Part shown: positions 46,356 to 64,000 of the stretch, one piece after another
How the letters are laid out: each line of letters opens with the position of its first letter
Position numbering within the stretch: the first letter of the stretch is position 1
DNA from: Cymbomonas tetramitiformis
Lineage: Eukaryota; Chlorophyta; Pyramimonadophyceae; Pyramimonadales; Pyramimonadaceae
Direction of reading: 5' to 3'
Assembly (NCBI GenBank): GCA_001247695.2
Contig: LGRX02010015.1
Location: 1-64,000 of the forward strand
DNA: 64,000 nt
Program-made: the position numbers and the translations under genes
Notes under the pieces: model-generated
The model's input: the letters and a program-made list of their open reading frames with translations, nothing else
What the model was told of the DNA's origin: nothing
The model's database searches: none

Positions 46356-46429
46356 GAGAGAGGCTTTTATAATATATATATAAGATTATTTCTTTAAGCT
46401 CAATTGGGTTAGTACTTTGCACTCAAAAT

Positions 46430-46705: not shown

Positions 46706-46764
46706 ATATATTGGATATAATATAATAACCAAAAATATTTTTAAATTGTTTAAGTTATATAAAA

Positions 46765-46938
46765 ATGGATATTTTAAACAATTCATGTGATTTTCAAGCA
46801 TTTGTTTCAGGAATTATTCTTATTATAGGCGCAATATTTACCGGTATTAGGTATTCGAGATGTGAAACTATAAATTCACCTTGTATAAATTGTAAGAGGA
46901 AAATATTAGAACAAGAAGAAAATACTAATAATGTTTAG
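46765..46938 (+). CDS. 57-residue single-helix membrane protein
   Basis: ATG at 46765 to TAG at 46936-46938. Residues 11-27 form one hydrophobic helix (FQAFVSGIILIIGAIFTGI), followed by a short tail with CETINSPCINCKRK (two Cys two residues apart). Small one-helix proteins are common in PLVs and virophages. It is divergent from the basic protein at 46430-46705. Confidence 0.55.
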   Translation: MDILNNSCDFQAFVSGIILIIGAIFTGIRYSRCETINSPCINCKRKILEQEENTNNV

Positions 46939-46987
46939 AAATATTAATTTCTTTTTATATCTATTATATTCTAATTAAAAATAAATA

Positions 46988-47443
46988 ATGGGTTATAAAA
47001 AAGGTGAAAAAATTACAGATGAAGCCACTTTAGAAAGATTGAAAAATGCAAGATTGAAAGCTTTAGAAGTAAGAAAATTGAAAGCCGAAGAAAAGAAAAA
47101 TATCAAAATTGCAAAAGATCTTGAAAATCAAAAAGAAATATTAGATGCAAAAGAAGTAATAAAAAATCACCGGAAACCGGAAAAAGACGAAATTAAAGTT
47201 GAACCAGAAGTAAAAAAAGAAGTTGTGAAATATAAAAAAAGTACAAATAAAAAACCAAAAGTTATTATTGAGGAAATACATGAAACTTCTAGTTCTAGTG
47301 AAAGTGAACCGGAAGTTATAGTTAAAAAGAAAAGAATTTCCAAAAAAAGAAATAATAAAAATATAGATAATAGCCCTCAATCACCTAAACAAACAAATAC
47401 TCATTATGATAAAGCGTATAGAAGTTTATTTCCTGAATTATAA
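46988..47443 (+). CDS. Lys/Glu-rich coiled-coil protein
   Basis: 151 residues dominated by Lys and Glu. A helical N-terminal half (LERLKNARLKALEVRKLKAE) is probably coiled coil, and the C-terminal half is disordered with a Ser/Glu cluster (ETSSSSESEPE). No known domain. It sits 18 bases before the ATPase gene on the same strand, so they may be co-expressed; a nucleoprotein or scaffold role is possible. Confidence 0.6.
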   Translation: MGYKKGEKITDEATLERLKNARLKALEVRKLKAEEKKNIKIAKDLENQKEILDAKEVIKNHRKPEKDEIKVEPEVKKEVVKYKKSTNKKPKVIIEEIHETSSSSESEPEVIVKKKRISKKRNNKNIDNSPQSPKQTNTHYDKAYRSLFPEL

Positions 47444-47461
47444 TATTAATAGAAAACTTGA

Positions 47462-48373
47462 ATGTTACAAACTCAAAAATTAAAAAATAAAGATTACGAA
47501 ATTAAACTACCAAAAGGTGGAGCATTCAATATAAATACAGACAGTGATTTTATTAATATGCATGCCGTTATTCTTGCAGTGGCAAAAAGAGGAGTAGGTA
47601 AGACTTGCAGCTTTTCTAATTTATTAAGATTAATGAAAAAGAATAATGCTTTAGATAGATTGATTTTGGTGAGCCCTACATACCACAATAATTCACATTA
47701 TTTTAAAGATTTACCCTTGGACAATGAAGATATATTGGAACCTTCAATTGAAGCTCCCCAAAAAATAGAAGAAATTCTTGACACCGAAGCTCAAGAATAC
47801 GAAGAATATCATGAAAAGTTGAAAAGATGGAAGAAATTAAATAAAATGTTAAAAGATAAAACAAAATCAATTCATGATATTCCAAATGAATTATTAATTG
47901 AATTTGAGGACACAATGTATAATCCACCGGAACATAAATATAATGGTAAAAAACCTGTGATAGTGGTTTTATTAGATGATGTACAAGGTAATGATATAAT
48001 GTTACCAAGAGCTAAATTAAATCAACTTGTAACTACTCACCGTCACAAAGGTAAATTAAAAAATGGTGCCTTGGGAGTTACTCTATTATTTGCAACACAA
48101 AATTATACAAGTAATCAAATGGGATTGAATAAATCAATAAGAGGTAACTTAACTCATTTATTAGTTTTCAAAAATAAAAATATTAAAGAGTTAGAGAAAA
48201 TTGCTGAGGAATGTAGTGGAGAAATAAATCAAGATACATTTTTTCAAGTTTATAATAAAGCTATTCAAAATCCACATGACTTCTTATTTATTGATTTACA
48301 TAAAAAGAGCACACATCCAAGTGGTTTCCGCAGGAATTTCAATGAATTTATTATTCCAAATACTTTAGAATAA
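47462..48373 (+). CDS. A32/FtsK-HerA-like DNA packaging ATPase
   Basis: 303 residues with Walker A AVAKRGVGKTC (near residue 42), Walker B VIVVLLDDVQ (near 168), and a following sensor segment LLFATQNYTSN, as in the packaging ATPases of PLVs, virophages and giant viruses. It drives genome translocation into the capsid. The insert between the Walker motifs is acidic and about 110 residues long. The frame is intact. Confidence 0.9.
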   Translation: MLQTQKLKNKDYEIKLPKGGAFNINTDSDFINMHAVILAVAKRGVGKTCSFSNLLRLMKKNNALDRLILVSPTYHNNSHYFKDLPLDNEDILEPSIEAPQKIEEILDTEAQEYEEYHEKLKRWKKLNKMLKDKTKSIHDIPNELLIEFEDTMYNPPEHKYNGKKPVIVVLLDDVQGNDIMLPRAKLNQLVTTHRHKGKLKNGALGVTLLFATQNYTSNQMGLNKSIRGNLTHLLVFKNKNIKELEKIAEECSGEINQDTFFQVYNKAIQNPHDFLFIDLHKKSTHPSGFRRNFNEFIIPNTLE

Positions 48374-48480
48374 ATGAAAAACAATTAAATATATATGCTG
48401 TGTCTATGTCACTATTACTTATATGTATGCAGTGTCTCTATCACTGTCAAGTATGTATGTATGCAGTGTTTCTGCTGCTA

Positions 48481-50199
48481 TTATTTATGTCCAAGATTGC
48501 TAATGAGTAAACCATAATGATTGTTTATCTCTTCCACCTTTTTGAACCTTTCAAACCTTTCTTCAACTGTGAGAGGTCTGTTAGGGAACTCGAAGGGGAG
48601 GTGAAGGCTTTTACGGTCAAAATTGATTAAACCCTTCTTGGCAGCATTTGCAAGGTGCCCAATCAATAAGCCTTCCAGATATTGCATATCTTGTTTAAGA
48701 ACTTCCTCGTAAGTGGAAAAAAAATCCTTTCCCTCCTTGTCACTCTTGACTCTGGTGGCTCTTATGGAGTTTATTTCTTTGTGGTAAGCTTCAGGGTCTT
48801 TCACTTGTAAGTTTGACATGTGAGTTAAGCCAAGCCTGCTTACAGTACCATATCTAGGATGCCGAAGTATTCGCATGTTGACATATTTTTCTGTGTCGGT
48901 AAAACTTACCTCAACGGACTTAGCCACTAGTACAGTTGAAGTATTCTGACAACTCAAACACTTATATTTATACCCTTCTTCGAAGTCAACTTGAACAAAG
49001 TCTGCCCGAGGTAACAAAATGCCGTGTAGCTCTCGTGTGTTAGGGTCATACTCTTCACCAAAAGAACCCAGGACGGCTTCCTTCACCTCGTCTGCTGTAA
49101 AATATTTGCAGAAGTTGCAATAGTCACACTTTAAAGCTGTTGGTGCAAAAGCCTCTTCTGCTGGTTCTTCGGAATCGGACTCAGCTTCTTCTTCGCTGTT
49201 TTCAAAACGGAGGTGTTGACCTCCCGATGTATCCTCGGCTTTTTGAGAAGTGTCTTCCGAACGTAAAATATTCTCTGTGGGCTGGGTATTTTGTAGCTCT
49301 TTTATTTCTTCCTGCTGACACTCTATTTCTAGCTCCTGCAGCTGAAGTTGTGCTTTTAGGTCCGCATTGAGAACCTCTGACTGTTTAAGTTTTTTCTCAA
49401 GTGAGGCAACTTGTGCCTTGTAATCGGTGATATTTTCTTTTAGCTCGGCATTTTCCTGCGTCAAGTCCTTAACCTCTGAGGAAGAGCGTTCACATATAGA
49501 CTCTAGTTCAAATATCTTGTCCCTTAACTCGGCATTCTCGACTTGCAGCTTTTTCACTTGAGCTTGTAAGTCACTAACGTCATCGTCGGGCATGGTGTCT
49601 GCTGTTGAAGTAAGATACTTTACTTTTTCATCTTCAGACTCGCTCTCTTGCGATTCAAACTGCGGCTGCGAAACTGTAGTCGCGGGGACTGGAAGAGTAG
49701 GGTCCAAGTAACGAAACTTCAAAAGCGCATCTACGCTCCCCTCAGAGTTTTGGCGCTCAAGCTCTTCACGCTCTTTTTCAGCTGAACCAACGGAAACTTT
49801 TAACTTTTTGTCGGCTATTCTTTGTCTTTCTTTCATTCTTTTTTTACTCTCTTGTTCTTCAGTGAGCAAGTGCCTGCAGTAATCGCGAAATAAAACATCG
49901 CGAACGCCCTCCGCTATAGCTGCCGATGCCGTGGTTGTAGCGTAGTCTACAATCGAGGGAGCAACGACAGTTCTCCATGTTTTACTCGTTGTAAACTTGG
50001 GCGCTTTCTCCCAACAACGTGAACAGTACAAGTATCTGCTTTTGTGTTTACATGCGGCATCTCCGGGTTCAATACGCGGATTATCGCGAACTTTGTCGAA
50101 GTTAATGCCTCCACACGGTACAGCTTTTGCAATAAGATACGTAGAGGGCTGAACTTTTGAATTGCAGTCATATTGCGTGTTATTCGACAGAGTTATCAT
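48481..50199 (-). CDS. Coiled-coil, Cys-rich protein of unknown function
   Basis: From the Met at 50199 (MITLSNNTQYDCN) this is a 572-residue protein. It has a Cys-containing N-terminal region (CKHKSRYLYCSRCWEK), then a long coiled coil (residues about 205-310, leucine heptads), an acidic stretch, a zinc-type cluster (CDYCNFC...YKCLSCQNT), and a C-terminal conserved-looking domain (YVNMRILRHPRYGTVSRLGL). The frame is open to 50352, but those extra residues merely translate the AAGTAACT repeats (VTCYLLVTY), so the internal start is better. Perhaps a DNA-binding or structural protein; no family recognised. Confidence 0.65.
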   Translation of the reverse strand: MITLSNNTQYDCNSKVQPSTYLIAKAVPCGGINFDKVRDNPRIEPGDAACKHKSRYLYCSRCWEKAPKFTTSKTWRTVVAPSIVDYATTTASAAIAEGVRDVLFRDYCRHLLTEEQESKKRMKERQRIADKKLKVSVGSAEKEREELERQNSEGSVDALLKFRYLDPTLPVPATTVSQPQFESQESESEDEKVKYLTSTADTMPDDDVSDLQAQVKKLQVENAELRDKIFELESICERSSSEVKDLTQENAELKENITDYKAQVASLEKKLKQSEVLNADLKAQLQLQELEIECQQEEIKELQNTQPTENILRSEDTSQKAEDTSGGQHLRFENSEEEAESDSEEPAEEAFAPTALKCDYCNFCKYFTADEVKEAVLGSFGEEYDPNTRELHGILLPRADFVQVDFEEGYKYKCLSCQNTSTVLVAKSVEVSFTDTEKYVNMRILRHPRYGTVSRLGLTHMSNLQVKDPEAYHKEINSIRATRVKSDKEGKDFFSTYEEVLKQDMQYLEGLLIGHLANAAKKGLINFDRKSLHLPFEFPNRPLTVEERFERFKKVEEINNHYGLLISNLGHK

Positions 50200-50213
50200 T
50201 TTTCGAGCAAGCT

Positions 50214-50555
50214 TCAAGTAAGTAACTAGTAAGTAACAAGTAAGTAACCTGTAAGTAACAAGTAAGTAACAAGTAACTCCTAAGTAACTCTCAAGTAACT
50301 CACAAGTAACTCTCAAATAACCTTTAATGAAAAATGCAATATTTTTTATCATTCATTTTATTTTTTATTTTATTTTTTATTTTAATTATTTTAATTATTT
50401 TAATTATTTTAATTATTTTAAATTTCTATTTTATTTAATAATTGTCACTATAAAGTTACTTATGAGTTACTTATGAGTTACTTAGGAGTTACTTGAGAGT
50501 TACTAGTTACTTACAGGTTACTTACTAGTTACTTACTTGTTACTTACAGGTTACT
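50214..50555. repeat. Facing AAGTAACT arrays around an AT-rich core
   Basis: Left arm (50214-50321) is a run of about eleven AAGTAACT-type units. Right arm (50453-50555) is the reverse complement series (AGTTACTT), and variants such as CTGTAAGTAAC and CTCAAGTAACTC appear in mirrored order. Between them lies about 130 bp of nearly pure A/T (TTTTATTTT, TTTTAATTA repeats). The two divergent genes of the island start 15 and 96 bp outside. A long hairpin with an easily melted centre and iterated protein-binding sites is the layout of many replication origins; a bidirectional promoter is the alternative. Confidence 0.85.
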
Positions 50556-50650
50556 ACTGTATACGATCGATGTTCGATACTCGAGCTTAAACAAATACGA
50601 TACATGCTACAAAATAATGTTTAACCACCCAAAATAATCAGTTAACAACT

Positions 50651-51367
50651 ATGGCGAAAACACGCGGTGCGAAACGCAAGCAGTGCTCCCGTTTTCAATG
50701 CGTAATATGCAACAAAGCATGTGGGGGTATTCCGTTCAATGCGATGCCTCTCGCAAGGGGAGAGTGTTGCGAGTCGTGCCATACTTCAAAGGTTATCCCC
50801 GCAACCGTGGAACAAAATGCGGAGGCACAAGCGGGTTCTTCCCGCGGTGTCAAACGTGAACGCCAGTCCGATTCCGAACCCGAGCCTTCTCCTAAGAAGA
50901 AGGAAAAGAAGAAACGTTTCCGTCCGATTGAAGGACCTGGAAAACAGGACAAGAAAGACCCTACTCCTTCACCCGAACACGCCATGCGCCTCCGAAGCAA
51001 AATAAAGTCTGCTTATTTCAAGCAAACTTTAGGAGGTGGTAACATGCGTCAAACGGACATCGCAACTGAATATAATATAAGGGAGAAGCATGGTACAGCA
51101 GAGCAAAGGAAACAAAAACGTGTAATGGATACAGCGTTGGAAGGTATGGAATCGGGAAACGTGTATTATGGCGAAGCAGGGAAAATTCCTATGCAGGAAC
51201 TGGGTCACTTTATTGAAAATATGGCACACGTAGATTACGTTGCCTTTGCAAAAAATAGTTCAGACGATGAGCAAAAGCCCGCGGAGGGCACTGAGAAAGA
51301 CCCCGCGGAGGGCACAGAGAAAGACCCCGCTAAGGGCACTGAGAAAGACCCCGCGGAGGGCAATTAG
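50651..51367 (+). CDS. Basic Cys-cluster protein with EGTEKDPA repeats
   Basis: 238 residues. The N terminus is basic with a zinc-binding cluster (CSRFQCVICNKACGG...CCESCH), followed by a Lys-rich disordered stretch with a nuclear-localisation-like run (SPKKKEKKKRFRP), a helical domain, and four tandem copies of an eight-residue acidic repeat, EGTEKDPA (24-bp units, about 51274-51365). A nuclear or DNA-associated role is likely from composition. No family recognised. It is divergent from the coiled-coil gene across the AAGTAACT arrays. Confidence 0.6.
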   Translation: MAKTRGAKRKQCSRFQCVICNKACGGIPFNAMPLARGECCESCHTSKVIPATVEQNAEAQAGSSRGVKRERQSDSEPEPSPKKKEKKKRFRPIEGPGKQDKKDPTPSPEHAMRLRSKIKSAYFKQTLGGGNMRQTDIATEYNIREKHGTAEQRKQKRVMDTALEGMESGNVYYGEAGKIPMQELGHFIENMAHVDYVAFAKNSSDDEQKPAEGTEKDPAEGTEKDPAKGTEKDPAEGN

Positions 51368-51434
51368 ACATACATAGCTATTACCATACTTTGTATTATT
51401 TGTCTATTACTTGTTCTATTATTGGTTCTAGCTT

Positions 51435-52145
51435 CTAGTTTCTACCTCGAAAAATCCTATCAGTTTCCGCGTCCTGAATAGCCAGAGGGTACGAGACCTT
51501 GACAATATCATCGGTGTGTAAACACCCTCTACACGCGTTGGGGTACCTATTAGCCCACTGTTCTGTATATCTGTTTTCGTTTGTTAGCCAATAGCAGACA
51601 CAATCGGTCTTGATACCGGCGTCCACGTCCGCGCAGTACGCCGATTGCGAACGAAATATGCAAACCTTGCAACCTTTCCGTGCGCATTTTAAACAAGTGC
51701 CGGTCTGCTGTTCTTCGGGTTTCTTGCAAAAAAAGTTGCTGCAACCTCTTGCAAAGTTGTCCCGAACAGGGTCCCGAACTCTTGTTGAAACAAACAGAGG
51801 CGGCGGGGCCGATGCCGCTGTCGCTGTCGCTGTCGCTGACGCTGTCGCTGTCGCTGTCGCCGATGCCGCTGCAGGCTTGAAACCTGAGGGCGCTTTTGGA
51901 GCAGCGCGACGCACAGGCCAACGTTTTTTCATAGCTTGCATATTTTCTTTTGACAAGCGGTGACAACGCCTGCTGAACGGTGACAACGCCTGCTGAACAG
52001 TCCTCGTTAGGACAATCGGCGACGCGGCTTGCGTTTCAGGTTGCTGAGCGGCTTCCGAAGCCTGCTGAGTAATATCCGATTCAAGGGTTAAGTCAATCGT
52101 CACCTCATCGGCAACCGGTTGCTTACTTTGACGGGTTCGGGGCAT
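51435..52145 (-). CDS. Cys-rich protein with Ala-Thr repeat linker
   Basis: 236 residues. The N-terminal third is disordered (Gln/Ala/Ser), then a basic patch (MKKRWPVRRAAPK) and an Ala-Thr linker encoded by a GACAGC-type hexamer repeat (51813-51873). A C-terminal Cys-rich domain follows (CSNFFCKKPEEQQTGTCLKC, RKGCKVC, CVCYW, CRGC), which probably binds zinc. No family recognised. It converges on the Cys-cluster gene at 50651. Confidence 0.6.
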   Translation of the reverse strand: MPRTRQSKQPVADEVTIDLTLESDITQQASEAAQQPETQAASPIVLTRTVQQALSPFSRRCHRLSKENMQAMKKRWPVRRAAPKAPSGFKPAAASATATATASATATATAASAPPPLFVSTRVRDPVRDNFARGCSNFFCKKPEEQQTGTCLKCARKGCKVCIFRSQSAYCADVDAGIKTDCVCYWLTNENRYTEQWANRYPNACRGCLHTDDIVKVSYPLAIQDAETDRIFRGRN

Positions 52146-52185
52146 TTTTGATAGTTAGAAGTTTGTCGTTTGTGAGGGGTTCGCA

Positions 52186-52249
52186 AGTTTGTGTAAGTTA
52201 TTTCCACAAACTAGCGACAGTCCTTATGTAAGGGGGTCAGAGCACCCCC
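52186..52249. repeat. Two small hairpins at the island's right edge
   Basis: AGTTTGTG/CACAAACT (52186-52193, 52205-52212) and GGGGGT/ACCCCC (52232-52237, 52244-52249). They lie between the last island gene and the AT-rich methyltransferase gene and may mark the island border. Confidence 0.5.
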
Positions 52250-52356
52250 GTCATTGACATTTATTAAAATTGATTTTTAAAATCATTTTTCTAAAATTTC
52301 GCGCTGATCATCACTAGCAAACTGAAATTCTCAAATTCCAAATACTTTATGAGATA

Positions 52357-53067
52357 TTACGACTCTGTCCTTTCCATGCAAATTTTGTAAAACTCACTAT
52401 CTAATTCAACCCCTATGTATTTTCGATTATTGTTTTTACAAGCAATTAAACTAGATCCAATACCCATAAAAGGATCACAAACGAGGTCATCTTCATTTGA
52501 ATATGATTTAATTAAATATTCCATTAATTCAATTGGTTTTGAACAAGGGTGTTTACTTTTGTAATTTCCGTTAGAAAATTTCAAAACTGATTTTGGATAT
52601 CGATAACCGTCTTCACATTTGGTCGGTAATCGAGCGCAATGTTTGGTATATATATTAGTAGTATTTGCACTCGATTTGTAATATGGTTTTCCGGGAGTTT
52701 TTTGCGGGTTAAATGTAGGTAGTCTTTTATAAAATATATAAATCATTTCGTGACTTCGCAATGGCATTTGATTTGCATGAAAAAATCCTAAAGATATACT
52801 CTTAAAATATACTAAATCATATCGAAACCATGCTTTATTACTTTCAATTATCTTATGTCCAAATTTAGTTGTGGTTAGAAAAATATAACATGTCTTATCT
52901 TTACCTATACGCTTCAAATGTTTCCACAACAAATTTAAATCTATTATTTCTTTATCCCATTTACAAGCCGTTTGATTATAAGGAAGGTCCAAAATGAATA
53001 AATCCACGGAATGGTCCTTTATTTGGGGCAAAATATCAAAACAGTTTGCATTATGTATTTCACACAT
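52357..53067 (-). CDS. DNA N6-adenine/N4-cytosine methyltransferase
   Basis: 236 residues of the N6_N4_Mtase family in the beta permutation: the catalytic DLPY (canonical D/N-P-P-Y/W, with Leu in the second position) at residues 27-30 precedes the AdoMet-binding DPFMGIGSSL near residue 198, followed by GVELDSEFY. It methylates adenine or cytosine in DNA. In PLVs such orphan enzymes may protect viral DNA. The frame is intact and A/T-biased like the PLV core genes. Confidence 0.85.
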   Translation of the reverse strand: MCEIHNANCFDILPQIKDHSVDLFILDLPYNQTACKWDKEIIDLNLLWKHLKRIGKDKTCYIFLTTTKFGHKIIESNKAWFRYDLVYFKSISLGFFHANQMPLRSHEMIYIFYKRLPTFNPQKTPGKPYYKSSANTTNIYTKHCARLPTKCEDGYRYPKSVLKFSNGNYKSKHPCSKPIELMEYLIKSYSNEDDLVCDPFMGIGSSLIACKNNNRKYIGVELDSEFYKICMERTES

Positions 53068-53127
53068 TAAATTTATACATATAAATTTAAATTTATTTAT
53101 TTATTTTATATAATACCTTAAAATTAA

Positions 53128-53706
53128 ATGAGACCTCAATTAACCGACGCTTATACTAAACAACAATGTTTGAAAATGATGGGAATCAAAAATAATTTTC
53201 CAAATACTGAAAAAATGTTCAAAAGTTATGGAAATCTTTCTAAAAACAGTTATAGCATGACAGCGCCAAATAAAAATCCAGAAATGTTTTATTTTGATTT
53301 AACGAACAGCATAATTAATCCCATGCATTTAACAAAAGAATTAAAGCACGATTTTGAATTTCCAACTTACAATGCAAATGAAGAAGATGTGTTTCATGAT
53401 TCCCCTTCAAGATTTGACAATCAAACTGAAAGTGATGAAGATTATGATGACGAATCTTATTCAAACAATTCCGGGAATGATGCACGCAATTTAGATTTTG
53501 AAACTCCCGAATTTGATAGAGGTCGTTCAATGGAACGGTCCGGTCAACAACCTCGCAATCAAAGGACTCGCAGTCCAACAAGTCAACGTAGATTAGATTT
53601 TATAGCACAAAGTCCCGAAATACAAATGGAAGTCGACGAAAATGACGGTCGTGAAAGACGTAATCGTAACCAAACTAGTTTTTTTTCTCCAAGCACAAAT
53701 TATTAA
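53128..53706 (+). CDS. Acidic and Arg/Ser-rich hypothetical protein
   Basis: 192 residues. The N-terminal 90 have protein-like content (PEMFYFDLTNSIINPMHLTK). The rest is acidic (ESDEDYDDESYS) then Arg/Gln/Ser-rich and presumably disordered. No family. Divergent from the methyltransferase by about 60 bp; first gene of the rightward structural cluster. Confidence 0.55.
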   Translation: MRPQLTDAYTKQQCLKMMGIKNNFPNTEKMFKSYGNLSKNSYSMTAPNKNPEMFYFDLTNSIINPMHLTKELKHDFEFPTYNANEEDVFHDSPSRFDNQTESDEDYDDESYSNNSGNDARNLDFETPEFDRGRSMERSGQQPRNQRTRSPTSQRRLDFIAQSPEIQMEVDENDGRERRNRNQTSFFSPSTNY

Positions 53707-53790
53707 GAATTTAAAGCAAGACCTCATGTTATGAAAGTCACTCTCCGTATTAGAGGAAATTTAATTTAAAATAAAATTATTAATTTATTT

Positions 53791-55233
53791 ATGTATACAT
53801 TTTGTGAAAATAATCCTTCGAATCTTTTTTGTCAAAAAGCAAAAATTGTGAATGATACACATTTTAAAAATAGTAATAAACACATAAAATTCAAAAATAA
53901 GTTTCAAGAAGCTTCACCATTTAAACAAATTCCTACAATTAAAAATAATGACTTTACCTCTCAAAAAACTAAAAACCAATCTGCAGAATTATTAAATGCA
54001 ATCCACACAGATTTCAAAAGATTACCTAATAAAGTGTTAAACAATTTTCTTGGGGAAAATGAAATTGAATTTGATAATCCTACTCAAAAAAAATATGCCT
54101 TAGCCGCTAATTCGGCTTATGCTATTAGCTATAACAATAAGGCAAAATTAAATAAAATAATGAAAGAACTTCCAAATTTCCAAATAGACCCTTTATTAAG
54201 CGGCAGAAATTCTGTGACATTAGTCAATACTTTAAATAAAGAGGTAATAATTGCATATCGAGGGAGCGACGCAGAATTTTTCAAATTAGATACAATTGCT
54301 AAAGACCCTAATAGATTGAAAAATGTAGAAGATTGGTATGTCAATTTATTGACAAGTATAGGTAATCAACGCTCAACTCAAAGATATAACGAAGCTTCTC
54401 AAAGATATGAAAATGTTTTTAAAAAATATGGAAATAATTACAAAATTTCCGTAACGGGTCACTCAAATGGTTCCGGACAAAGCAATTTTATTGCTGAAAA
54501 ATATAATGTCGAAGGTCATCATTTTAACCCTGCAATTAATCCCTTGCAAAACCCTGTGAACACGCCAACCGAAAAACAATATGTTTATTCAACGGAAGGA
54601 GATTTAGTTTCGTTACCGGCAAGAATTAAACCACATCCAAATTCTAATTATGAAATTATACATGTAAATCCTAAACCCGGAACTGAAAATAATCTTACGA
54701 AATTGCATGATATTGAACAAATGTACACCGAAAATTACCCAAAAACTGAAAGGGTTTCAACGGCAAGGTCAAGATTTGGTTTTGCAAATGCTATAGGCGG
54801 TTCAGTGATGGGAGGTTATTTTGGCTATTATCAACCTACAAATTCAAAAGATGAGCATTACTTTAGAACAACCCAAGGTGTTTTAGAAGGTGCATTGTTA
54901 AATGAAGCACTACCTATTAATTTTACAGATTTTATGGATACAATGGGTGTAAAAGAAAGTTTTGAAGAAAAGAATTATTTAAGGAAATATTTAGGATTGC
55001 ATCCAATCGAAGAAAGAAATATAGACAAAGTTCCTAGTTATGACCCTATTACAAAAAAAATTAGAAAAATCACGGGAAGAAACAAGCAAGATAAACAATT
55101 ATTTTCTCCAACAACCGGTGTAAGTTATGAAAATCGAGAAATAAATTCAGGTAATTTTAAAAAGGGAATTAGATATGTTGAGTATGACGGAAATAGTTCA
55201 ACACCTCAAAAGGTTGGTGTAATAAATCCATAA
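53791..55233 (+). CDS. Class 3 lipase-like alpha/beta hydrolase
   Basis: 480 residues. The core (about 145-310) has IAYRGSD (oxyanion region), SVTGHSNGSGQ near residue 223 (nucleophile elbow G-x-S-x-G), STEGDLVS (candidate Asp) and KLHDIEQMY (candidate His), in the order of class 3 lipases. The C-terminal part has a Gly-rich segment (ANAIGGSVMGGYFGYY) and a charged tail. PLVs and adeno-like elements carry such lipases, probably to breach membranes during entry; that role is inference. Confidence 0.75.
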   Translation: MYTFCENNPSNLFCQKAKIVNDTHFKNSNKHIKFKNKFQEASPFKQIPTIKNNDFTSQKTKNQSAELLNAIHTDFKRLPNKVLNNFLGENEIEFDNPTQKKYALAANSAYAISYNNKAKLNKIMKELPNFQIDPLLSGRNSVTLVNTLNKEVIIAYRGSDAEFFKLDTIAKDPNRLKNVEDWYVNLLTSIGNQRSTQRYNEASQRYENVFKKYGNNYKISVTGHSNGSGQSNFIAEKYNVEGHHFNPAINPLQNPVNTPTEKQYVYSTEGDLVSLPARIKPHPNSNYEIIHVNPKPGTENNLTKLHDIEQMYTENYPKTERVSTARSRFGFANAIGGSVMGGYFGYYQPTNSKDEHYFRTTQGVLEGALLNEALPINFTDFMDTMGVKESFEEKNYLRKYLGLHPIEERNIDKVPSYDPITKKIRKITGRNKQDKQLFSPTTGVSYENREINSGNFKKGIRYVEYDGNSSTPQKVGVINP

Positions 55234-55359
55234 ACATGTTAGTTCCAAAGTAAAGATATATTACTATAGTATTAATTCTCAGATTGGAACACTTTTTTTG
55301 AAACCTTACAATTTATTAGAAAAAAATATTAATAAATATAAAAGAACATTTAATTTAAA

Positions 55360-55575
55360 ATGAATATTGAAAAAGATCTTTTAATTGTGGAAGCCGAAAG
55401 AATATTCAAAAATATTCCCAAAGCACATATTGAACTTATAGTCGATGATTATTTAAATAGAACCGAATATTACACTGAATTAGCCAATGGAAATATCGAA
55501 ATTTCTAAACCAAAATTTAGGGACACGGAAGCAAATATTAAAAATCAATCTTTTATTAGTATAGATAATGAATAA
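55360..55575 (+). CDS. Small hypothetical protein
   Basis: 71 residues, helical N-terminal half (LLIVEAERIFKNIPKAHIEL). Its stop overlaps the start of the next gene by 8 bases, implying the two are expressed together. No family recognised. Confidence 0.5.
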   Translation: MNIEKDLLIVEAERIFKNIPKAHIELIVDDYLNRTEYYTELANGNIEISKPKFRDTEANIKNQSFISIDNE

Positions 55576-56554
55576 TATAATTTCATCACGAACTATATAT
55601 TTAAATAGTGAAGAAAATTCGGCAGGTGATTCTCGAAGAATAGATGTAAATATACCTACAGCTTTATTAAATTATAGAGCTACAAGTAAATTACGTGTTG
55701 TCTTGAATTCCTTTTCGGCTGCTAAAACATGGTATACTATTAATAATTTTAATGGAATATTCTTTATAGGTAATACTAATGCTAATAAATTATTTCCCGT
55801 AGAAATTCCTTTTGCAAATTATACAGAATTACCTCAATTAGAAACAGTTTTAAGTACAAATATAAAAGCAGTTTTAGATAATGAATTTGCATATACCGGA
55901 ACGGTTACCGTAGAATATAATGGTAACCCTGTTAATTATAAAAATAAGTTTAAAATTACTTTATCAATTGCAGTTCCGAATATTAAGTTTGTTTCTTTTT
56001 CAGTTAGAAATGAATTCAATGCAAACAATCCTTTACAAGCTGAACTACAAACAAAAGTTATAGGTCCAAGTAAATATAACGACGCCGACGAAATTTTAGG
56101 TGGACGTGTTAATAGACGAACTAGTAATTTATCAAATGTTTCTCAATCAATTGATTTATTTGAAATAATAACACCGGACACGGTATTTGAAAGTTATTAT
56201 CCTTGTAATTTACAAACAAATGATGCTCTTTATTTACGAATAACATCTTTGCCCACAAATAATGTCGAATCTACAAATTTAAGTGCTATAAGTAGTGATT
56301 CAACTTCATTGATATCCAGTGATATTTTTGCTAAAATACTTTTACCAAATGATTTAACTACAAATTTTATAGATTTCCTAAATCCCAATGACAATTTTTC
56401 TATAGATATTTCAGGTTCACAATTAACCGAACTAAAATTTGTTTTAACCGACTCAAAAAATAGACCTATACCTTTAGTTTCCCCAACGGAAGCACGGGAC
56501 GGTTCTATTTCATATTCAATGTCTCTCATTATCAAAGAACTTTCACAATTTTAA
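55568..56554 (+). CDS. Minor capsid (penton) protein candidate
   Basis: 328 residues, almost entirely beta-strand by pattern, beginning SSRTIYLNSEENSAG and ending FVLTDSKNRPIPL before a final strand. That start and the LTDS...P segment near the end are typical of PLV/virophage penton proteins, which lie directly upstream of the major capsid gene, as here. It would form the pentamers at capsid vertices. The assignment rests on position, size and fold pattern. Confidence 0.65.
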   Translation: MNNIISSRTIYLNSEENSAGDSRRIDVNIPTALLNYRATSKLRVVLNSFSAAKTWYTINNFNGIFFIGNTNANKLFPVEIPFANYTELPQLETVLSTNIKAVLDNEFAYTGTVTVEYNGNPVNYKNKFKITLSIAVPNIKFVSFSVRNEFNANNPLQAELQTKVIGPSKYNDADEILGGRVNRRTSNLSNVSQSIDLFEIITPDTVFESYYPCNLQTNDALYLRITSLPTNNVESTNLSAISSDSTSLISSDIFAKILLPNDLTTNFIDFLNPNDNFSIDISGSQLTELKFVLTDSKNRPIPLVSPTEARDGSISYSMSLIIKELSQF

Positions 56555-56594
56555 AATTTTTTATTTATGTTACTAATATATTATATATAAAAGA

Positions 56595-57924
56595 ATGTCT
56601 TTGCCATTAACTCTTGCGTACGCACTTCAAAAAGTTTCCGGCTATAGCACTAATTATTTTAGGCTTGAAACCACAAATCAAGACACCGCAACAAATAATT
56701 CTACAATCACTCTAAATCTTCCGTCAAACGTAATTATAAAATTTAAAATCACTTTCGATGCATTGTGAAGCTCAAGCGAACGAAAATAATATTGCCATTC
56801 CGGGAGGTGCTGATTTTTTGAGAACAATGCTTCCTAATGGACTCGACAAATTAATCTCTCGGGTAGAAGTGACAGCCGGCGGAATCCAAATCCAAAGTGG
56901 TTGTAATGGTTATTCTACGGTTTCCACCGTTTTAGACAATTTACAAACTACTTTAAATAAAGAAATTAGTTATCAAAGAGTTTTGCAAAACCAAGAAATT
57001 GAAGTTACAGACCTTAATTATTATAAAACATTTCGACCTTTTATAATTCAAGAATTTAGAAGCTTTATAGGAGAGAGCGAGCCGAGTTATTTAGATACAT
57101 CTCTTTTGCCACCTATTCAACTTCGATTTTATTTGCACGGTCCTGAAGTTTTAGGAGCTGTTCAAAATAGCCTTGGTTTAGGAAACAGTTTAACCGACGC
57201 CGGTCAACAAGCTTTAATCTCTAATGGTAGATTTACTTTGCAAAAACTTTATTTTACAATTGAAACTATCACATTTTCCAATGGAGTTTATGATTCGGCT
57301 GTGGATGCAAAATTAAAACGAGATGGTTTCCTCGAAATTCCCTTTAAGAATTATTATAGTTTTACATCTTCTCACGACGGTATGAATAAATCTACACGAT
57401 TCAGTTTAAGTTCGCAATCTATCGACGAAATTTATGCTGTGCAACGTCTAGGAGATTATCAAACTAAATCTAAAGGTTTGATTCAAATTGACAATAAAAT
57501 AGGTCCTACATTTATACCAAGTTATTTCGACTTTAAAAGTGGAAGGCTTGGGAGTGGACAATTTAATGTAAATAATCTTTATATTCCTAATTACCGTAGC
57601 GATGCATTAGGATATTTCAATTCAATGTGTGTCGCTAAAGCGGACCAATATATGACTAAATGTGGTTGTAAAGTTAATAGTTTTGAAGATTGGGTAAATC
57701 ATTATTTTACTTTTATGATTCGAATGAATATGCCTAGTGATATGGGTGTAAGAAATTTATCAGGTCTTGATAGTCGTAGCCTTAACACAATGATGTATTT
57801 AGAGACTAGTGAAGGTACAAATACCACCGAAAATCTATTAACAAATAATGAAGTATTTGTATTTTGTGCATGTACAAGCGTTTTGCGCGTAGGTGTGGGA
57901 CGTATGATTGAATTGATTGTTTAA
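56595..57924 (+). pseudogene. Major capsid protein, one-base frameshift
   Basis: The first 57 codons from the ATG at 56595 (MSLPLTLAYALQ) run to a TGA at 56766. A second frame, +1, is open from 56758 to 57924 and continues naturally (CEAQANENNIAIPGGADFLR). Reading across needs one T fewer in GCATTGTG at 56760-56767. The joined protein of about 440 residues is beta-rich with N-terminal helix, located just after the penton candidate, as expected for the double jelly-roll capsid protein of PLVs. Disruption would stop virion formation unless it is a sequencing error or programmed shift. Confidence 0.65.
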
Positions 57925-57956
57925 ATGTTTTATTTATTAATATAAATAAAAAAAGA

Positions 57957-58274
57957 ATGAACAGATTTCAACCAAATATCTCTTCCACAAGTTTAGGCGA
58001 ACGTATAGGCAAAATTAAGGCTGAATTACCTCCATCTTTATTGCAAATGTCAGGGTTTAGACCGCCTTTGATGCAACAATTACCTTGTAAATCAATTAAT
58101 GATATAACTTTACCCCCAGCAAAAATATCAAATGTAAATGAATTGGCTGGATATAAATCTTACATTTTTGGTCACGGTGATAAACCAACTTTGAAAACTT
58201 CAATGTTTACCTTTCCCGAACAGCATCCATTAAATAATCCTATTTTAAAACCCGCAAATTCTTTCTTTGTGTAA
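57957..58274 (+). CDS. Hypothetical virion-cluster protein
   Basis: 105 residues, Pro-rich, no membrane segment (SGFRPPLMQQLPCKS; AGYKSYIFGHGDKP). It follows the capsid gene by 32 bases. Probably a small structural component; no family recognised. Confidence 0.5.
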   Translation: MNRFQPNISSTSLGERIGKIKAELPPSLLQMSGFRPPLMQQLPCKSINDITLPPAKISNVNELAGYKSYIFGHGDKPTLKTSMFTFPEQHPLNNPILKPANSFFV

Positions 58275-58285
58275 TATTATATACA

Positions 58286-58558
58286 ATGTCGTCTTTTGGA
58301 AAAGAATTGATTTTAAGCAAAACTATAAATGTGGGTACCGGTATGATTATTGGAGCATACAATCAAAATTCAGGTGACCAAGATAAGCTTTTACATATAT
58401 TTCCTACTGACGAAAACAAATTTATCAGCGACGTTCGATTTTTTGGTTTACCCGAGTCAACTGATGATGCAACTTTTGTTATAAATGGCGTAACAAGAAA
58501 TTTACAAGGTGGACAAGTTTATTATGATGTAAACAGAAATCTTAAAATAAAACCCTAA
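58286..58558 (+). CDS. Small protein related in its start to the fibre gene
   Basis: 90 residues. It begins MSSFGKELILSKTINVGTG, which parallels the start of the next protein (MTSFGKNVFLKTLNNV), so the two share an N-terminal segment, perhaps a virion-attachment peptide. The rest is beta-rich. Confidence 0.5.
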   Translation: MSSFGKELILSKTINVGTGMIIGAYNQNSGDQDKLLHIFPTDENKFISDVRFFGLPESTDDATFVINGVTRNLQGGQVYYDVNRNLKIKP

Positions 58559-58584
58559 AATTTTATAATATGATATAATATATA

Positions 58585-60168
58585 ATGACTAGTTTCGGTA
58601 AAAATGTATTTCTTAAAACTTTAAACAATGTAACCGACCCTGGTCCTAATCCTACCGTTCCCGACCCATTAACAATTAATCAATTAAATGTAAATCAAAT
58701 AGGTGATAATTCAAATCCTTGCCAAACAATTCATATGGCTTCAGATTTTTTATACCGTGGAGATATTTCATATATTGATAATTCAGATGTAAATAATCAA
58801 AGAGAATTTATGAAATTACAAACTGATGGTGATTTAAATTTGGTAAATAATATTAATTTTTATGATTTTATTTTAAATAATCCTGCAAGTAAATCAAAAT
58901 TTTCGATAGGTTTAGATGAACTTGATAGTTCTTTTGAAATTAAATCAAATGACCCAGTTTCTCAAACTCGCTTGAAAATTGGAGACACCGGTATAAATGA
59001 ATGGTCATTTATGCAAACCACATTGAATGTAGAACCGAATGGAGCCGGTGTGCTCCTTAATGATGGTCCATTGATTTTAAACACAGGTGATATTACTTTG
59101 AATTCTGGTAAATTTATTGGTGACGGTTCTTTGCTTCAAAATTTACCGTATCCTGCCGAAAATCAATCTCTTCAAAATGTTTGTGACATTTCTCCTATTA
59201 CAACGACTAACATTACAGCAAATTCGTTTATTGGTAACGGAAGTCAATTGACTAATTTACCGGTGCAACCTGATACTTCAACATTACAAGATGTAACCAC
59301 ACGTGGCTCAATATCTACAACAAACGATATTTCTTTTACCGGAACTGGAAAACTTATAATAAATCAGGAAGAATGTGATGGAAATTTATTTAGAATTAGG
59401 GCTGGTACTTCCGGTGATGGTTTGGTTTCTATTGGGGAATCAACTCAAAATGATGGTTTCACAAACGCAGAACGTTCGGTTTTGATAGGTAGGAATAGTG
59501 GAGCTTTCAATTGTTTAAACGATTCAATATGTATAGGTAGCGGAGCCGGTAATAATCAATGTAAGGCTTACGTTGTAAACGTTGGGGACGATGCAGGTCA
59601 AAACTTTGCTTCGGAGAATTCAGTCAATATTGGTAAATATAGTGGGGAATATTTGGCTGGCGAGAGTTCAATCAATATTGGGGCTTTGGCCGGTCAAAAC
59701 TCTGCTCAAAGTGCTACGGCTATTGATAATACGATAATTTTAAACGCAAGCGGTTTTGAACTTAATGCAGGTGTAAATAATTCGTGTTATATTAGACCTA
59801 TTAGGGCAAGTCCTGATGTTAGTTCAGAAAATTTACAATTATATTATGATTCTGCATCAAATGAAGTTAGAACCGGTGCAATAAATTCTGGAAGTATTGG
59901 AAGTCTTTCGCAGGTTTTAGCGGTTGGGAACAGCGGTTCTAACATTAATTTGACCGGAGATTTGGATTGTAGTGCTATACGACTTGTTAATAGCATCGAC
60001 TGGGCGTATACAACGCCAACATCATCATTGACAACCATAGGTATTCCATTAACAAATTTAACAAATGCATACACGGCTTCATTACCATCGAGTCCGGTTC
60101 CTCATACAGGTGACGTATTTACTTTTGAAAATAATACCGGAGGTACAATAAGTGCCGGAGATATTGTT
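58585..60168 (+). CDS. Fibre-like protein, C terminus cut by gypsy LTR
   Basis: 528 residues are encoded before the LTR begins at 60169; the frame then runs 44 codons into the LTR. The sequence is a chain of short beta repeats: FIGDGSLLQNLP and FIGNGSQLTNLP, then SVLIGRNSGAF, SICIGSGAGNN, SVNIGKYSGEY, SINIGALAGQN. Such repeats form trimeric stalks in tail fibres and YadA-like adhesins. A host-attachment fibre is the likely role. The lost C-terminal end should lie beyond the gypsy element. Confidence 0.7.
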
Positions 60169-60593
60169 TGTAGGAGTCTACACCTAGGCTTCTTCTCTTC
60201 TTTACGGTTTCGGACTTATACTATTCTACACTTATTAAACGACCGCACGAGGTATGCTTACGATTGGTCAACTACAAGACTTCGGTTTCGTAAATCTATA
60301 TAGTTATGCTTTTGCTATCAGTGCATGCTTTCAATACACAATATACAGCAGTTACGGCTCTTTACTTTTATGTCTTACTTTTCAGTTCAGTTCATCTCCC
60401 CGAAACGGGTTACTCTTAGAGTTCTTATACATTCAGGAACTCTTTCCATAACTCAACTGTACTGAGTACTCCGTACAACAGTCTAGGCACCTCACATCAA
60501 CATCATTCTGATCGGTCCTACTGTACTCCGTACTGAGTACTTCTGCGTTTTATACTTAGCCGTTTTTCTTGCTCTTGTGCTTGCCTCCTAGCA
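60169..60593 (-). repeat. 3' LTR of the gypsy element
   Basis: On the minus strand it starts TGCTAGGAGGCAAGC at 60593 and ends ACTCCTACA at 60169, with TG...CA ends. It directly follows a polypurine tract (nine G) and directly abuts the interrupted PLV gene. It contains TACTGAGTAC palindromes near 60461 and 60532. Only one LTR is visible, so the limits rest on these signals. Confidence 0.7.
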
Positions 60594-60616
60594 CAACTCC
60601 CCCCCCCTTAGGGAAG
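60594..60616 (-). promoter_or_regulatory. Polypurine tract
   Basis: On the minus strand, CCTAAGGGGGGGGGAGTTG lies immediately before the LTR start, the place and composition of a plus-strand primer for LTR retrotransposons. Confidence 0.65.
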
Positions 60617-60639
60617 GTCACGTCCACGCTGACCACGTC

Positions 60640-61300
60640 GGACCAGTAAAGTTTTTATACAGATCTTCTACTGTTGCTCTGAATGATTATACAGGTCTCA
60701 GCCGCCTGTTGTCTGGGATGACATTACACTTCCCAAGACACACCGCAATAAGGAGATCGACCTCTTAAGCACAAGGGTCGGCCTCTCACCGGTCTGCCAT
60801 CTGCACTACCAGGCTCCCCCAAGGCTCAAGGTTTCACATCCATTACCACGCTCAAGGTTTTAAACCTCCCAACACGGCACACTTACAGGGGATGACAATA
60901 GGTTTGCCAATTACCTGACAGTTCTCGGGATGCCGGCCCGGAGGAAAGGCTTTAAACCTTCACCGCCTCCTCGGAGTGCTAGAGCTTTTACCCAGATCTC
61001 CAACTGCTGCCCGGTCGTGCCAGGTCCGGAGCCAATGCTCTCGTGAAATGGATTATACAGATTTCCACCTGTTGCCTGGTCGCGCCGAGGCTAGAGCCAC
61101 TGCTCACTTGGATAGATTACCCAGGTTCTCACCTGCCGCTTGGTCATACCAAGGCTTAGAGCCACTGCTCAAATGGATTATACAGATTTCCACCTGTTGC
61201 CTGGCTGTGCCGAGGCTAGAGCCACTGCTCTCTCGGATGGATTACCCAGGTTCTCACCTGCCGCCTGGTCTCGCCAAGGCTGGAGCCACCGCTCTTCCCG
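60640..61300. repeat. About 65-bp repeats in the gypsy 3' untranslated region
   Basis: At least five units alternate between two types sharing GAGCCACTGCTC and either ATTATACAGATTTCCACCTG or ATTACCCAGGTTCTCACCTG, giving a 130-bp higher-order period at 60985-61295. A decayed copy lies near 60650-60710. Frames through it are repeat artefacts. Confidence 0.8.
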
Positions 61301-61316: not shown

Positions 61317-62540
61317 TCAATCGCTAAGACCACTCGCGTCAGATTCCCATCCGCCCTCAGGTATGATCGTCACCTCCGCTCGCACTCCCGCTAACGCTAT
61401 CGGTTCCGGCTCAAACTCGGGCGGGTCACTCTCAACAACAGCTGACTGGACTAAAACGCTCATCTCGCTCAGATCCTCCCTGACAAGCAGTTCAGACAGG
61501 AACGCATGCACCTCTTCATGTAGGGTCAGGTTGTGGAAAAGCTGTTTTAACAGTGCTGACGGAATCCCATACAAATTCTCTCGCGCTCCCATGCCCTTCG
61601 CGAACACACCTCCGGCTCTCATCGCGCGCCCTCCTTGCGCTACTTTCTCGTGCCTACCGTGCTGCCGGAAGAACTCGCAAGGCGTATCGGAATCGCATAC
61701 TCGCAAGGGTGTGCGCAACGGAACGTTGGTCCAGATGTGCGTGGGCTTCCTGTATGCGGTCCCGTATTTGCAGTACGTGACGAGGTGCGGAGCTGGTAGA
61801 TTGCTCATGCAGCGACGCGTGTGCAACCCGTGGGGCTCTCTTCCCCTCGGGTTCTCAATGAAGTATGCTTCGGGCCTCAAGTACCGGATGATCTCCAATG
61901 TCCTACGAACTCGCCTGTCCGCAGCACGCAAATCTCGGATGCCTACCGTCTTCGCTTGGCTGTACTCTGTGCAAGGTGGGCTAGCCCAGACTACGTCGAA
62001 GTGTCCTGGTCTGAACTGTCGATAGTCCCATCGCATGATATCCTCGCAATGTGTGGGGCCCCACTTGGGCTGAATGTCTACAGCAACTACTTCGCTATTG
62101 GGAAATTGCTTAGTGAACTGCCTCTCGACTGACCCGGTCCCACAAAACAATACAAGAATCCTAGACTGGCCGACTGGCTCCTTCTCAAGTGCTGCGGCTC
62201 CGTTGACTGGCGGCAGGGTGCTCTGAGCAGATACTCTCGCGAAAGTTCCTACTTCCTCATCAAACCTCTCCTCTGGCACCCATGGCATTGCTCCGTCTAC
62301 CTTGAGCTCCTCCGATAGCGTGGTCCATACCGCTCCTGCGGACTCGTCGCGTCTCTTACGGACCCTAAGCTTCTCTCGCTCCACTCTCTTAGCCTCGATC
62401 CTCTCAAACTCCAACAACGCTCGGTTGGGAACACCGGGCCTGCCGGCTCCGTCCCACTCCAGATCCTCTCGGGTCTTCCACTCGTTCTCACTGCGGGGCA
62501 TTCCTGTCCACTTGACCAGGGTACTCTGTCCACCTCCTGC
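61317..62540 (-). CDS. Chromodomain plus C5-cytosine DNA methyltransferase of the gypsy element
   Basis: After QSTLVKWTGMPRSENEWKT, which matches the chromodomain core, the protein has a Dcm/Dnmt-type methyltransferase: ILVLFCGTGSVERQF (motif I), VVAVDIQP (motif II), DVVWASPPCTEYSQAKT (motif IV with catalytic Cys), YFIENPRG (motif VI) and THIWTNVPL (motif X). It transfers methyl groups to cytosine in DNA. It is in the +1 frame relative to the integrase ORF and overlaps it; the chromodomain start is at the overlap near 62540, so a frameshift is needed for a fusion. Retrotransposon-borne methyltransferases are known from some algae and dinoflagellates. Confidence 0.85.
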   Translation of the reverse strand, partial: AGGGQSTLVKWTGMPRSENEWKTREDLEWDGAGRPGVPNRALLEFERIEAKRVEREKLRVRKRRDESAGAVWTTLSEELKVDGAMPWVPEERFDEEVGTFARVSAQSTLPPVNGAAALEKEPVGQSRILVLFCGTGSVERQFTKQFPNSEVVAVDIQPKWGPTHCEDIMRWDYRQFRPGHFDVVWASPPCTEYSQAKTVGIRDLRAADRRVRRTLEIIRYLRPEAYFIENPRGREPHGLHTRRCMSNLPAPHLVTYCKYGTAYRKPTHIWTNVPLRTPLRVCDSDTPCEFFRQHGRHEKVAQGGRAMRAGGVFAKGMGARENLYGIPSALLKQLFHNLTLHEEVHAFLSELLVREDLSEMSVLVQSAVVESDPPEFEPEPIALAGVRAEVTIIPEGGWESDASGLSD

Positions 62541-64000
62541 CCTGACGCTGGCGCGTGCGCGAACGCTCCACCCTCTCGACGTGGGTTTCCTTGCGCCCGC
62601 TGACGTCCAACGGAGGAGGGGGAATCTCCTTAGCTCTCTCAACGAAGCGGCTGCCCGACTCTACTGGCGAAAGCCGGTCCACGGTAAACACATCGTGCAC
62701 TTTCCACTGCTTAGGCGTCTGCAACCTATAGGCCGACGGTGCGCCTCTATCGCTCGCGGGAAGGGCCATCTGCCTGTCGCTGTGAAAGACTTCCAGCACC
62801 CGAAGGGGCCCAAGGCGCTTCTTAAGCAACTTCTTGTGCAACCCGCGGTCGCCCGGCTGAGTGAGGTGCGTGGCATCCACCCAAACCTCATCGCCTACTG
62901 CGTAACTCCTGGACCTGTGACGCGCGTCGTACTGGGCGATCTGTTGCTGCTGAGCTAAGAGCAGCTTCTCCCTAGCGAGCTGCAACTGGCGAACAAACTG
63001 GCGGGCTGTCTCGTGGGCTGTACCCTTTTTTACTGCTGCGCCCCTCCCCCCCTTAGCTCGGCCTCTCCGTGATGCAAGTGCTGCCTCCACGAAGAAATCC
63101 AGCTGAGAGGCCGGAGCGTGACCATACGTCAGTTCAAAAGGGGTGAATCCCGTGACGGCGGAACGAGAGTCATTAATGGCGTACTCGACCGGGGTACACC
63201 ATAAATCCCAATCGTGCTGGTTGGCGTCGACGTACGCGCGCAACATGCGTTCGACCGTGTGGTTTGTGTGCTCTGCCTGCCCATCACCTTGAGGGTGGTA
63301 CGGCGTGGTAGAGGCAACCTGGACTCCCATCAACCGATGTAGCTCGAGATGCATCTCATCCCTGAAGCGGGAGTCCCGATCACAGACGATCTTCATGGGA
63401 GCGCCGTGCAAACGCCACACTTGGTCGAAATACATGCGCGCGATCTGTGCAGCTGAGCTGTCAGCGTAAAGCATGGGAACTACGTGCACCATCTTGGACA
63501 ACTTGTCCGTGAAGGTAGCAAACGCGTCGTACCCTCGCTCTGTGCGGGGCAGCCCAGTGACGAAGTCGATACTAACCACTTGCCACAGTCTTACTGGGAC
63601 TTGCAGGGGGTTAAGCTGACCGTCTGGATACCCGTTGCGTGGCCGGGTCTGTTGGCACACAACGCAGGATTTGCACCAGTCGGTGACATCCTTGCTCATG
63701 CGTGGCCACCAAAAGCGACGGGATACTCTGTCCAGTGTCTTATCCCTTCCTGTGTGCCCTGCTGCTGGGGACTCGTGTGCTTCGCGCATCACCAGCTCTC
63801 TGAGGGGGGAATCCTGAGCTAGCACTAGCTGATACCGCCCTTCTGCCACTCGCCATATCATGTCGTCTACCATGCGAAATGTGTCTGTCCTCTGATGTGG
63901 GGCTGCGATCAGTTCCTCCTTCAACGAGCTGAGGTACTGGCTGCGTTCGTATTCCGCTTGCAAGGCGCGGACGAACTCATCAGCCTTCAGTGGGCCTGAT
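62488..64000 (-). CDS. Ty3/gypsy polyprotein, integrase part (5' end outside window)
   Basis: The frame enters from the right edge (LKADEFVRAL) and carries the HHCC zinc finger (HTGRDKTLDRVSRRFWWPRM ... CKSCVVCQ) and the integrase DDE core: VVSIDFVTGLP, KIVCDRDSRF and HPQGDGQAEHTN. After a linker (VDATHLTQPGDRG; LGPLRVLEVF; YRLQTPKQWKVHDVF), typical of chromovirus integrase C termini, the frame leaves the expected chromodomain near 62540 and ends at 62488. The classic ERTN motif reads EHTN, retaining the Glu. Confidence 0.9.
   Translation of the reverse strand, partial: SGPLKADEFVRALQAEYERSQYLSSLKEELIAAPHQRTDTFRMVDDMIWRVAEGRYQLVLAQDSPLRELVMREAHESPAAGHTGRDKTLDRVSRRFWWPRMSKDVTDWCKSCVVCQQTRPRNGYPDGQLNPLQVPVRLWQVVSIDFVTGLPRTERGYDAFATFTDKLSKMVHVVPMLYADSSAAQIARMYFDQVWRLHGAPMKIVCDRDSRFRDEMHLELHRLMGVQVASTTPYHPQGDGQAEHTNHTVERMLRAYVDANQHDWDLWCTPVEYAINDSRSAVTGFTPFELTYGHAPASQLDFFVEAALASRRGRAKGGRGAAVKKGTAHETARQFVRQLQLAREKLLLAQQQQIAQYDARHRSRSYAVGDEVWVDATHLTQPGDRGLHKKLLKKRLGPLRVLEVFHSDRQMALPASDRGAPSAYRLQTPKQWKVHDVFTVDRLSPVESGSRFVERAKEIPPPPLDVSGRKETHVERVERSRTRQRQGRRWTEYPGQVDRNAPQ

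Follow-up and report, generated by a model that had tools for sequence, protein, structure and literature searches.

The window analysed here is a 64,000-nucleotide stretch of the alga Cymbomonas tetramitiformis (C7921:1-64000 of the 851.7 Mb assembly that was searched as the genome), and it ends inside a Ty3/gypsy retrotransposon that carries a C5 cytosine methyltransferase. The whole element measures 14.4 kb (C7921:60169-74565) and is defined by its long terminal repeats (LTRs), their TG..CA ends and a TTGTT target-site duplication. The LTRs belong to a 429-bp direct repeat (60167-60595 and 74137-74565), the two copies of which are 99.5% identical, with two differences; the insertion is therefore young. 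The element comprises, in order, a gag open reading frame (ORF), a pol ORF, the methyltransferase ORF, tandem repeats, a purine-rich tract and the 3' LTR, with the following features.

60169 to 60595, minus strand: 3' LTR with TG..CA ends, from the 429-bp direct repeat
C7921:74137-74565: 5' LTR, from the same repeat
60164 to 60168 (left copy) and C7921:74566-74570 (right copy), no strand: target-site duplication TTGTT, read in the flanks
60596 to 60620, minus strand: purine-rich tract adjoining the 3' LTR, likely the polypurine tract, from the sequence
60993 to 61295, minus strand: tandem repeats, unit ~125 bp, that follow the methyltransferase ORF (self-comparison, 73-90% identity)
61317 to 62660, minus strand: ORF of 447 codons and a stop, encoding the C5 methyltransferase and the second piece of the chromodomain (Pfam, PHROGs, homologues)
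61500 to 62162, minus strand: C5 methyltransferase domain, with SPPC at 61971-61982 and ENP at 61848-61856 (alignment, AlphaFold2 model, structure matches)
62457 to 62610, minus strand: chromodomain, split by a frame break in the window copy (profile matches)
62491 to 64000, minus strand: 3' end of pol (integrase ORF at 62488-63999), with the integrase domain at 63148-63825
C7921:64081-64578: Dam-like domain with NPPY at 64369-64380, starting ~80 bp past the window end
C7921:65188-65610, 65698-66420 and 67570-67872: RNase H, reverse transcriptase (RT) and protease, all in the pol frame
C7921:69258-73709: gag ORF, 1484 codons

The pol frame runs beyond the window to C7921:69579, comprises 2363 codons and overlaps the gag ORF, in which the CCHC match is weak (18.5 bits, below the cut-off of 20.8). 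Two LTRs with TG..CA ends, the target-site duplication and the Pol order protease, RT, RNase H and integrase identify the element as Ty3/gypsy, and a chromodomain behind the integrase (31 bits, cut-off 25.1, continuous in the copy on contig C13390) points to a chromovirus. In the window copy, the first piece of this chromodomain lies at 62506-62610 in the pol frame and the second comprises residues 44-68 of the methyltransferase ORF. The aromatic residues of CHD_I chromodomains are given in the available text of PMC3350952 as Y24, W45 and Y48; by eye, against these Chlamyvir-type residues, the W is present (KWTGM), an M stands at the place of Y48 and the place of Y24 has no clear aromatic. DIRS features are absent, the element having a DDE integrase and ordinary direct LTRs, and no phage-integrase match was listed up to E 1.

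The methyltransferase is a component of the element

The methyltransferase (METHYLTRANSFERASE) is a component of the element: it shares the strand of the element and is flanked by the chromodomain on one side and by the purine tract and 3' LTR on the other, inside the stretch that the two LTRs bound. A protein search of the genome scored 94 copies of 9075 first-look candidates; 91 of these methyltransferase matches have no internal stop, and 12 stand at the end of open frames of 2753-2759 codons. The 2759-codon frame of copy C13390 reads protease, RT, RNase H, Dam-like domain, integrase, SH3, chromodomain and C5 methyltransferase, with SH3, rve and C5 below their Pfam cut-offs and C5 matching phrog_757 at 5e-16. 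This copy is incomplete at both ends; in an alignment of 8871 columns it shares 99.0% identity with C7921. An earlier note, made from the window alone, had described a Ty3/gypsy integrase followed by a chromodomain and a C5 methyltransferase, all carried by a retrotransposon. This description holds, and the element goes beyond it: the chromodomain that is frame-split in the window is continuous in C13390, where enzyme, RT and integrase stand in a single open frame.

The LTRs tell the same position. In a search of the genome that scored 40 copies, the best of 2339 first-look candidates, all 40 matches were ~99-100% identical. When the coordinates of the scored matches were compared, 13 contigs, the window included, were found to have an LTR match and a methyltransferase match spaced exactly 720 bp apart, and on C4216, C5314 and C5234 an LTR match lay ~11.55 kb upstream of the methyltransferase match, as the 5' LTR does in the window copy. 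The earlier note had also considered that the methyltransferase might belong to a separate gene. That the enzyme is a viral or host gene of its own, or was placed next to the element by misassembly, might be suspected because enzyme and pol occupy two frames in the window copy and because the element sits within virus-like DNA; however, the bounding LTRs, their fixed spacing on 13 contigs and the in-frame arrangement in 12 scored copies, and in metagenome proteins as well, make this possibility vanishingly small and, as far as sequence goes, rule it out.

In the window copy the frame is broken by a small indel within the chromodomain that is private to this copy. The frame is uninterrupted in P0028, P0055, L029, L036 and L038, the broken copies L031, L032, L034 and L037 are interrupted at places other than that of the window copy, and L033 has extra bases in the stretch where frames break. 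Because the break sites differ, a shared or programmed frameshift was rejected, and the breaks are treated as private lesions or assembly errors. A group of nine matches aligned from residue 1, with frames of 447-485 codons, ranks first in the copy list, an effect of the shifted N-terminus in the query.

A viral-type C5 enzyme and a Dam-like domain

The enzyme has the motifs I, IV (PPC) and VI (as ENP) and the fold of the C5 methyltransferase class; the motifs and catalytic cysteine noted earlier are thus confirmed by alignment, motif counts and fold. Its three nearest proteins, 95-99% identical to the ORF, are from C. tetramitiformis itself. By profile and fold it is of the compact viral type (phrog_757) and not of the host Dnmt type. 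The best viral model for the domain is A0A2P0VN45 of Tetraselmis virus 1 (37% identity, template modelling score 0.87 by target length), and the solved structures closest to its AlphaFold2 model are DNMT3A/B and M.HhaI. A phylogeny, which the earlier note had proposed as a check, placed 38 element sequences on their own side of a branch, with a Shimodaira-Hasegawa-like approximate likelihood ratio test (SH-aLRT) support of 92. An alignment-based search of viral contigs with the C5 domain recovered at least 525 relatives among 600 stretches, of which 80 were kept; searches with the single window protein gave no match in viral contigs or in the PDB. The N-terminal stretch of P0048, which is one of six free-standing proteins that are sisters to the element enzymes, looks Tudor-like by eye.

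A host Dnmt origin was considered and rejected. The comparison covered 35 proteins: those of six further C5 loci in the genome, three pols of the L009 type and 26 long ORFs of loci L009-L028. Only L007 and L008 among them matched the C5 profile, and these weakly (22.7 and 24.5 bits); BLASTP of the window enzyme against the same set gave L007 at E 0.07. The window enzyme, being of viral type, is not a Dnmt3-class enzyme in Pol.

Between RNase H and integrase, Pol also holds a phage-Dam-like adenine methyltransferase domain, which was invisible to the earlier note because it starts ~80 bp beyond the window end. It matches the phage-type Dam profile PF05869 with 33.9 bits (cut-off 28.1) and has NPPY, and it scores 23.6 bits against the TIGR01712 equivalog for phage N6-adenine methyltransferase, below the cut-off of 97.05. 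Among viral models, the domain is matched best by DNA N6-adenine methyltransferases of phages. It was found in 513 of 50,697 phage records, and the 20 matches seen are 28-32% identical over 58-78% of the query; a search of viral contigs gave no match, and none of eight proteins was a free-standing relative. Both methyltransferase domains are present in 15 of 25 related polyproteins.

Conservation and mutational footprint

The earlier note had warned that key motifs might be lost in most copies, and this is not what we observed. All 31 C5 domains with element context retain SPPC, and 30 of them ENP; 26 match a pattern of our own for motif I, and 25 have VIII-like and X-like motifs. NPPY/F of the Dam-like domain is kept in 22 of 25 relatives and lost in three (P0090, P0091 and P0092); the C5 domain of P0092 retains SPPC and ENP. 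Median identity to 10 relatives, which include P0081 with its degraded protease, RT and RNase H, is 62% for RT, 75% for RNase H, 67% for integrase, 43% for protease, 38% for chromodomain, 51% for Dam and 50% for C5; in the linkers it is 24%, 38% and 19%, and in the tail 2%. The Dam and C5 domains are therefore better conserved than the adjoining linkers, and also than protease and chromodomain. The ratio of nonsynonymous to synonymous divergence (dN/dS) is 0.05-0.14 where the dS of a pair exceeds 0.03 (10 copies, 387 codons, no stop or indel there), a value biased downward because the copies were picked by protein match; the within-protein comparison of identities is freer of this bias.

A mutational footprint of 5-methylcytosine (5mC) was sought in nine pairwise, non-independent comparisons of element copies, each involving the window copy, and none was found, transitions being nearly equal across sequence contexts. 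The observed/expected ratio of CpG, 0.86 for the element itself, is 1.45 for positions 1-40000 of the window and 1.04 for the virus-like part; the sequence near L001 gives 0.96, and L009 gives 0.74. When L029 and L031-L038 were compared with C7921, again non-independently, 269 of 311 differences were transitions, with A/G (162) exceeding C/T (107) on the element sense strand.

Other C5 loci in the genome

A genome search with PF00145, in which 123 of 6837 candidates were scored, gave a list of 124 matches; 20 of these, L009-L028, were retrieved. At 18 of these loci the RT is ~27-29% identical to that of the window element, and the remaining two have an integrase. A Dnmt3-like GxPCQDLS motif occurs in 20 of their 26 long ORFs, and neither the Dam nor the viral-type C5 profile matched any of the 26. 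Pfam places the C5 domain of three L009-type pols between RNase H and integrase, with a PHD finger added behind the integrase in L018; L009 matches DNMT3A in the PDB at E 0.002 and has Dnmt3-like motifs by eye. The genome holds another, only distantly related Gypsy lineage whose enzyme is Dnmt3-like, and which resembles the KnitGypsy-Dnmt3 described in the available text of PMC5890265. Frames of this lineage reach 2398 codons, an example being locus G000:C17782:30000-39900. Other full-length C5 methyltransferases are encoded at L001 (G000:C23365) and L002 (G000:C169), with PF00145 matches of E ~1e-66; L001 matches M.HhaI at 1e-42.

Insertion site and surrounding window

The element interrupts a virus-like ORF, and the base composition changes there, GC being 0.57-0.59 at 61-64 kb versus 0.26-0.37 at 53-60 kb. 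When the element and one target-site copy, less one codon, were removed, the ORF rejoined in frame and stayed open for 639 codons; the other two of the three join variants stop at 536 and 530 codons. Because the in-frame join leaves the ORF open, the insertion hit an open frame. The AT-rich virus-like region around it is likely a polinton-like virus (PLV). Another ORF of the window matches DDE_Tnp_1_7 (E 4e-24), a second transposase.

58585 to 60168, plus strand: virus-like ORF interrupted by the element (join test)
41148 to 60168: AT-rich virus-like region
41148 to 42305: rve integrase
42297 to 46355: type B DNA polymerase
53770 to 55233: lipase-like ORF
24045 to 26579: ORF of the second transposase

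Discussion

Why do retrotransposons keep DNA methyltransferases, when methylation is a mark that hosts turn against them? The element makes this question testable, in that one algal genome contains two distant Gypsy lineages with different C5 enzymes at different pol positions, and one of these lineages also has an adenine-type enzyme. Because the methyltransferase domains of the window lineage are more conserved than its protease and chromodomain, they appear to serve the element. The kinship with viral enzymes points to a transfer of genes between retrotransposons and algal viruses, in one direction or the other, and not to the capture of a host Dnmt. Nanopore data for Cymbomonas exist, according to the available text of PMC10675990, and could be re-called for 5mC and N6-methyladenine.

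We favour, at about even chances, a young Ty3/gypsy chromodomain element whose Pol contains viral-type C5 and Dam-like enzymes that mark the element's own DNA. Both enzymes would be made within Pol and packaged alongside RT and integrase; such co-packaging is likely, because the domains sit inside Pol. They would then modify the complementary DNA (cDNA) of the element during or after reverse transcription, or act at the insertion site, held there by integrase and chromodomain, and the new copy would arrive pre-marked. The mark could shield the copy from nucleases or from the surveillance of unmodified DNA, or could seed a chromatin state. We infer packaging, catalytic activity, DNA as the substrate and a benefit to the element, and self-marking of new copies is the mechanism that we favour and propose. 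In the available text of PMC5890265, retrotransposon DNMTs are reported to be capable of methylating CG de novo, and de Mendoza and colleagues propose self-marking of the cDNA or insertion site for their own elements. More tentatively, and with the balance somewhat against it, a long-lived LTR lineage might have maintained a portable C5 and adenine kit, packaged with RT and integrase, so that its copies enter the genome marked on both C and A; as part of the same reading, this two-enzyme kit would be the retrotransposon counterpart of the anti-restriction modification of phages, obtained from viral and not host genes.

The domains might instead act on RNA, the Dam-like one placing a cap-adjacent mark of the N6-methyladenosine type and the C5 one 5-methylcytidine, thereby aiding translation, packaging or the evasion of RNA sensing. 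We regard this as unlikely, since the best viral models of the Dam-like domain are DNA enzymes of phages, the PHROG and Pfam names are those of DNA methyltransferases, and the nearest solved structures to the C5 model are DNMT3A/B and M.HhaI. A little less probable still is that the methyltransferase restrains the element, silencing the insertion site or other copies and so limiting copy number and host damage. The C5 domain does follow the chromodomain, chromodomains of other elements are said to target heterochromatin (a reference given in the available text of PMC12477816 and PMC3350952), and this option was raised by de Mendoza and colleagues in that of PMC5890265; nevertheless, the family is abundant and recent, as the near-identity of the scored LTR matches indicates. 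It is quite improbable that the domains are inactive and retained as binding or structural modules of Pol. The three relatives without NPPY/F, and a chromodomain that by eye lacks at least one aromatic-cage residue, would fit this reading, but a structural module need not keep SPPC, ENP and NPPY/F at the frequencies given above.

Retrotransposons bearing methyltransferases are already known, and the earlier note was right that their capture has precedents in algae and dinoflagellates; those precedents, as far as the available text of PMC5890265 goes, are of the Dnmt3-like or orphan class, whereas the enzyme here is of viral type. In the titles and abstracts of the open-licence literature searched, neither a pairing of Dam and C5 in one retrotransposon nor specifically of a viral-type C5 with Dam was found, which is no proof of its absence in print. 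KnitGypsy-Dnmt3 of Klebsormidium nitens resembles the window element in being a Gypsy element of a green-lineage alga with a C5 enzyme in the Pol ORF under purifying selection; it differs in its Dnmt3 class and its DIRS-like repeats, and no Dam-like domain is mentioned in the available text of that source. Its closer match in Cymbomonas is the second lineage (L009 and others). SymbioDIRS-Dnmt3 and SymbioLINE-Dnmt of Symbiodinium, from the same text, also carry a methyltransferase in the retrotransposon coding region, in the DIRS type in the Pol ORF, but are DIRS or LINE elements with enzymes of the Dnmt3 or orphan class and other integration machinery. The available part of PMC12344493 (2025) reports DNMT3 in LTR Copia and DIRS elements, and SymbioLINEs, with no mention of Cymbomonas. 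DIRS elements with a Dam-like domain, cited in PMC5890265 and PMC6338049, share a Dam-like adenine methyltransferase domain in Pol, a likeness of domain type; they have a tyrosine recombinase and not a DDE integrase, and no C5 domain is described for them in the portions available.

In Cymbomonas itself, Burns 2015 (PMC5741210) reported scaffolds of over 10,000x coverage with homology to chromodomain, RNase H and cytosine DNA methyltransferase, and Gyaltshen 2023 (PMC10675990) a Ty3/Gypsy chromodomain element inserted in a PLV, in a text where the word methyltransferase occurs nowhere. Judged from the available portions of both, these are very likely elements of the same kind as that of the window, and the same portions contain no description of the fusion, the viral enzyme type or the Dam-like domain. 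The compact viral C5 methyltransferases (phrog_757; A0A2P0VN45) share the fold and motifs of the window enzyme, including ENP in aligned relatives; in contrast to it, they are free-standing viral proteins and are not fused to Pol.
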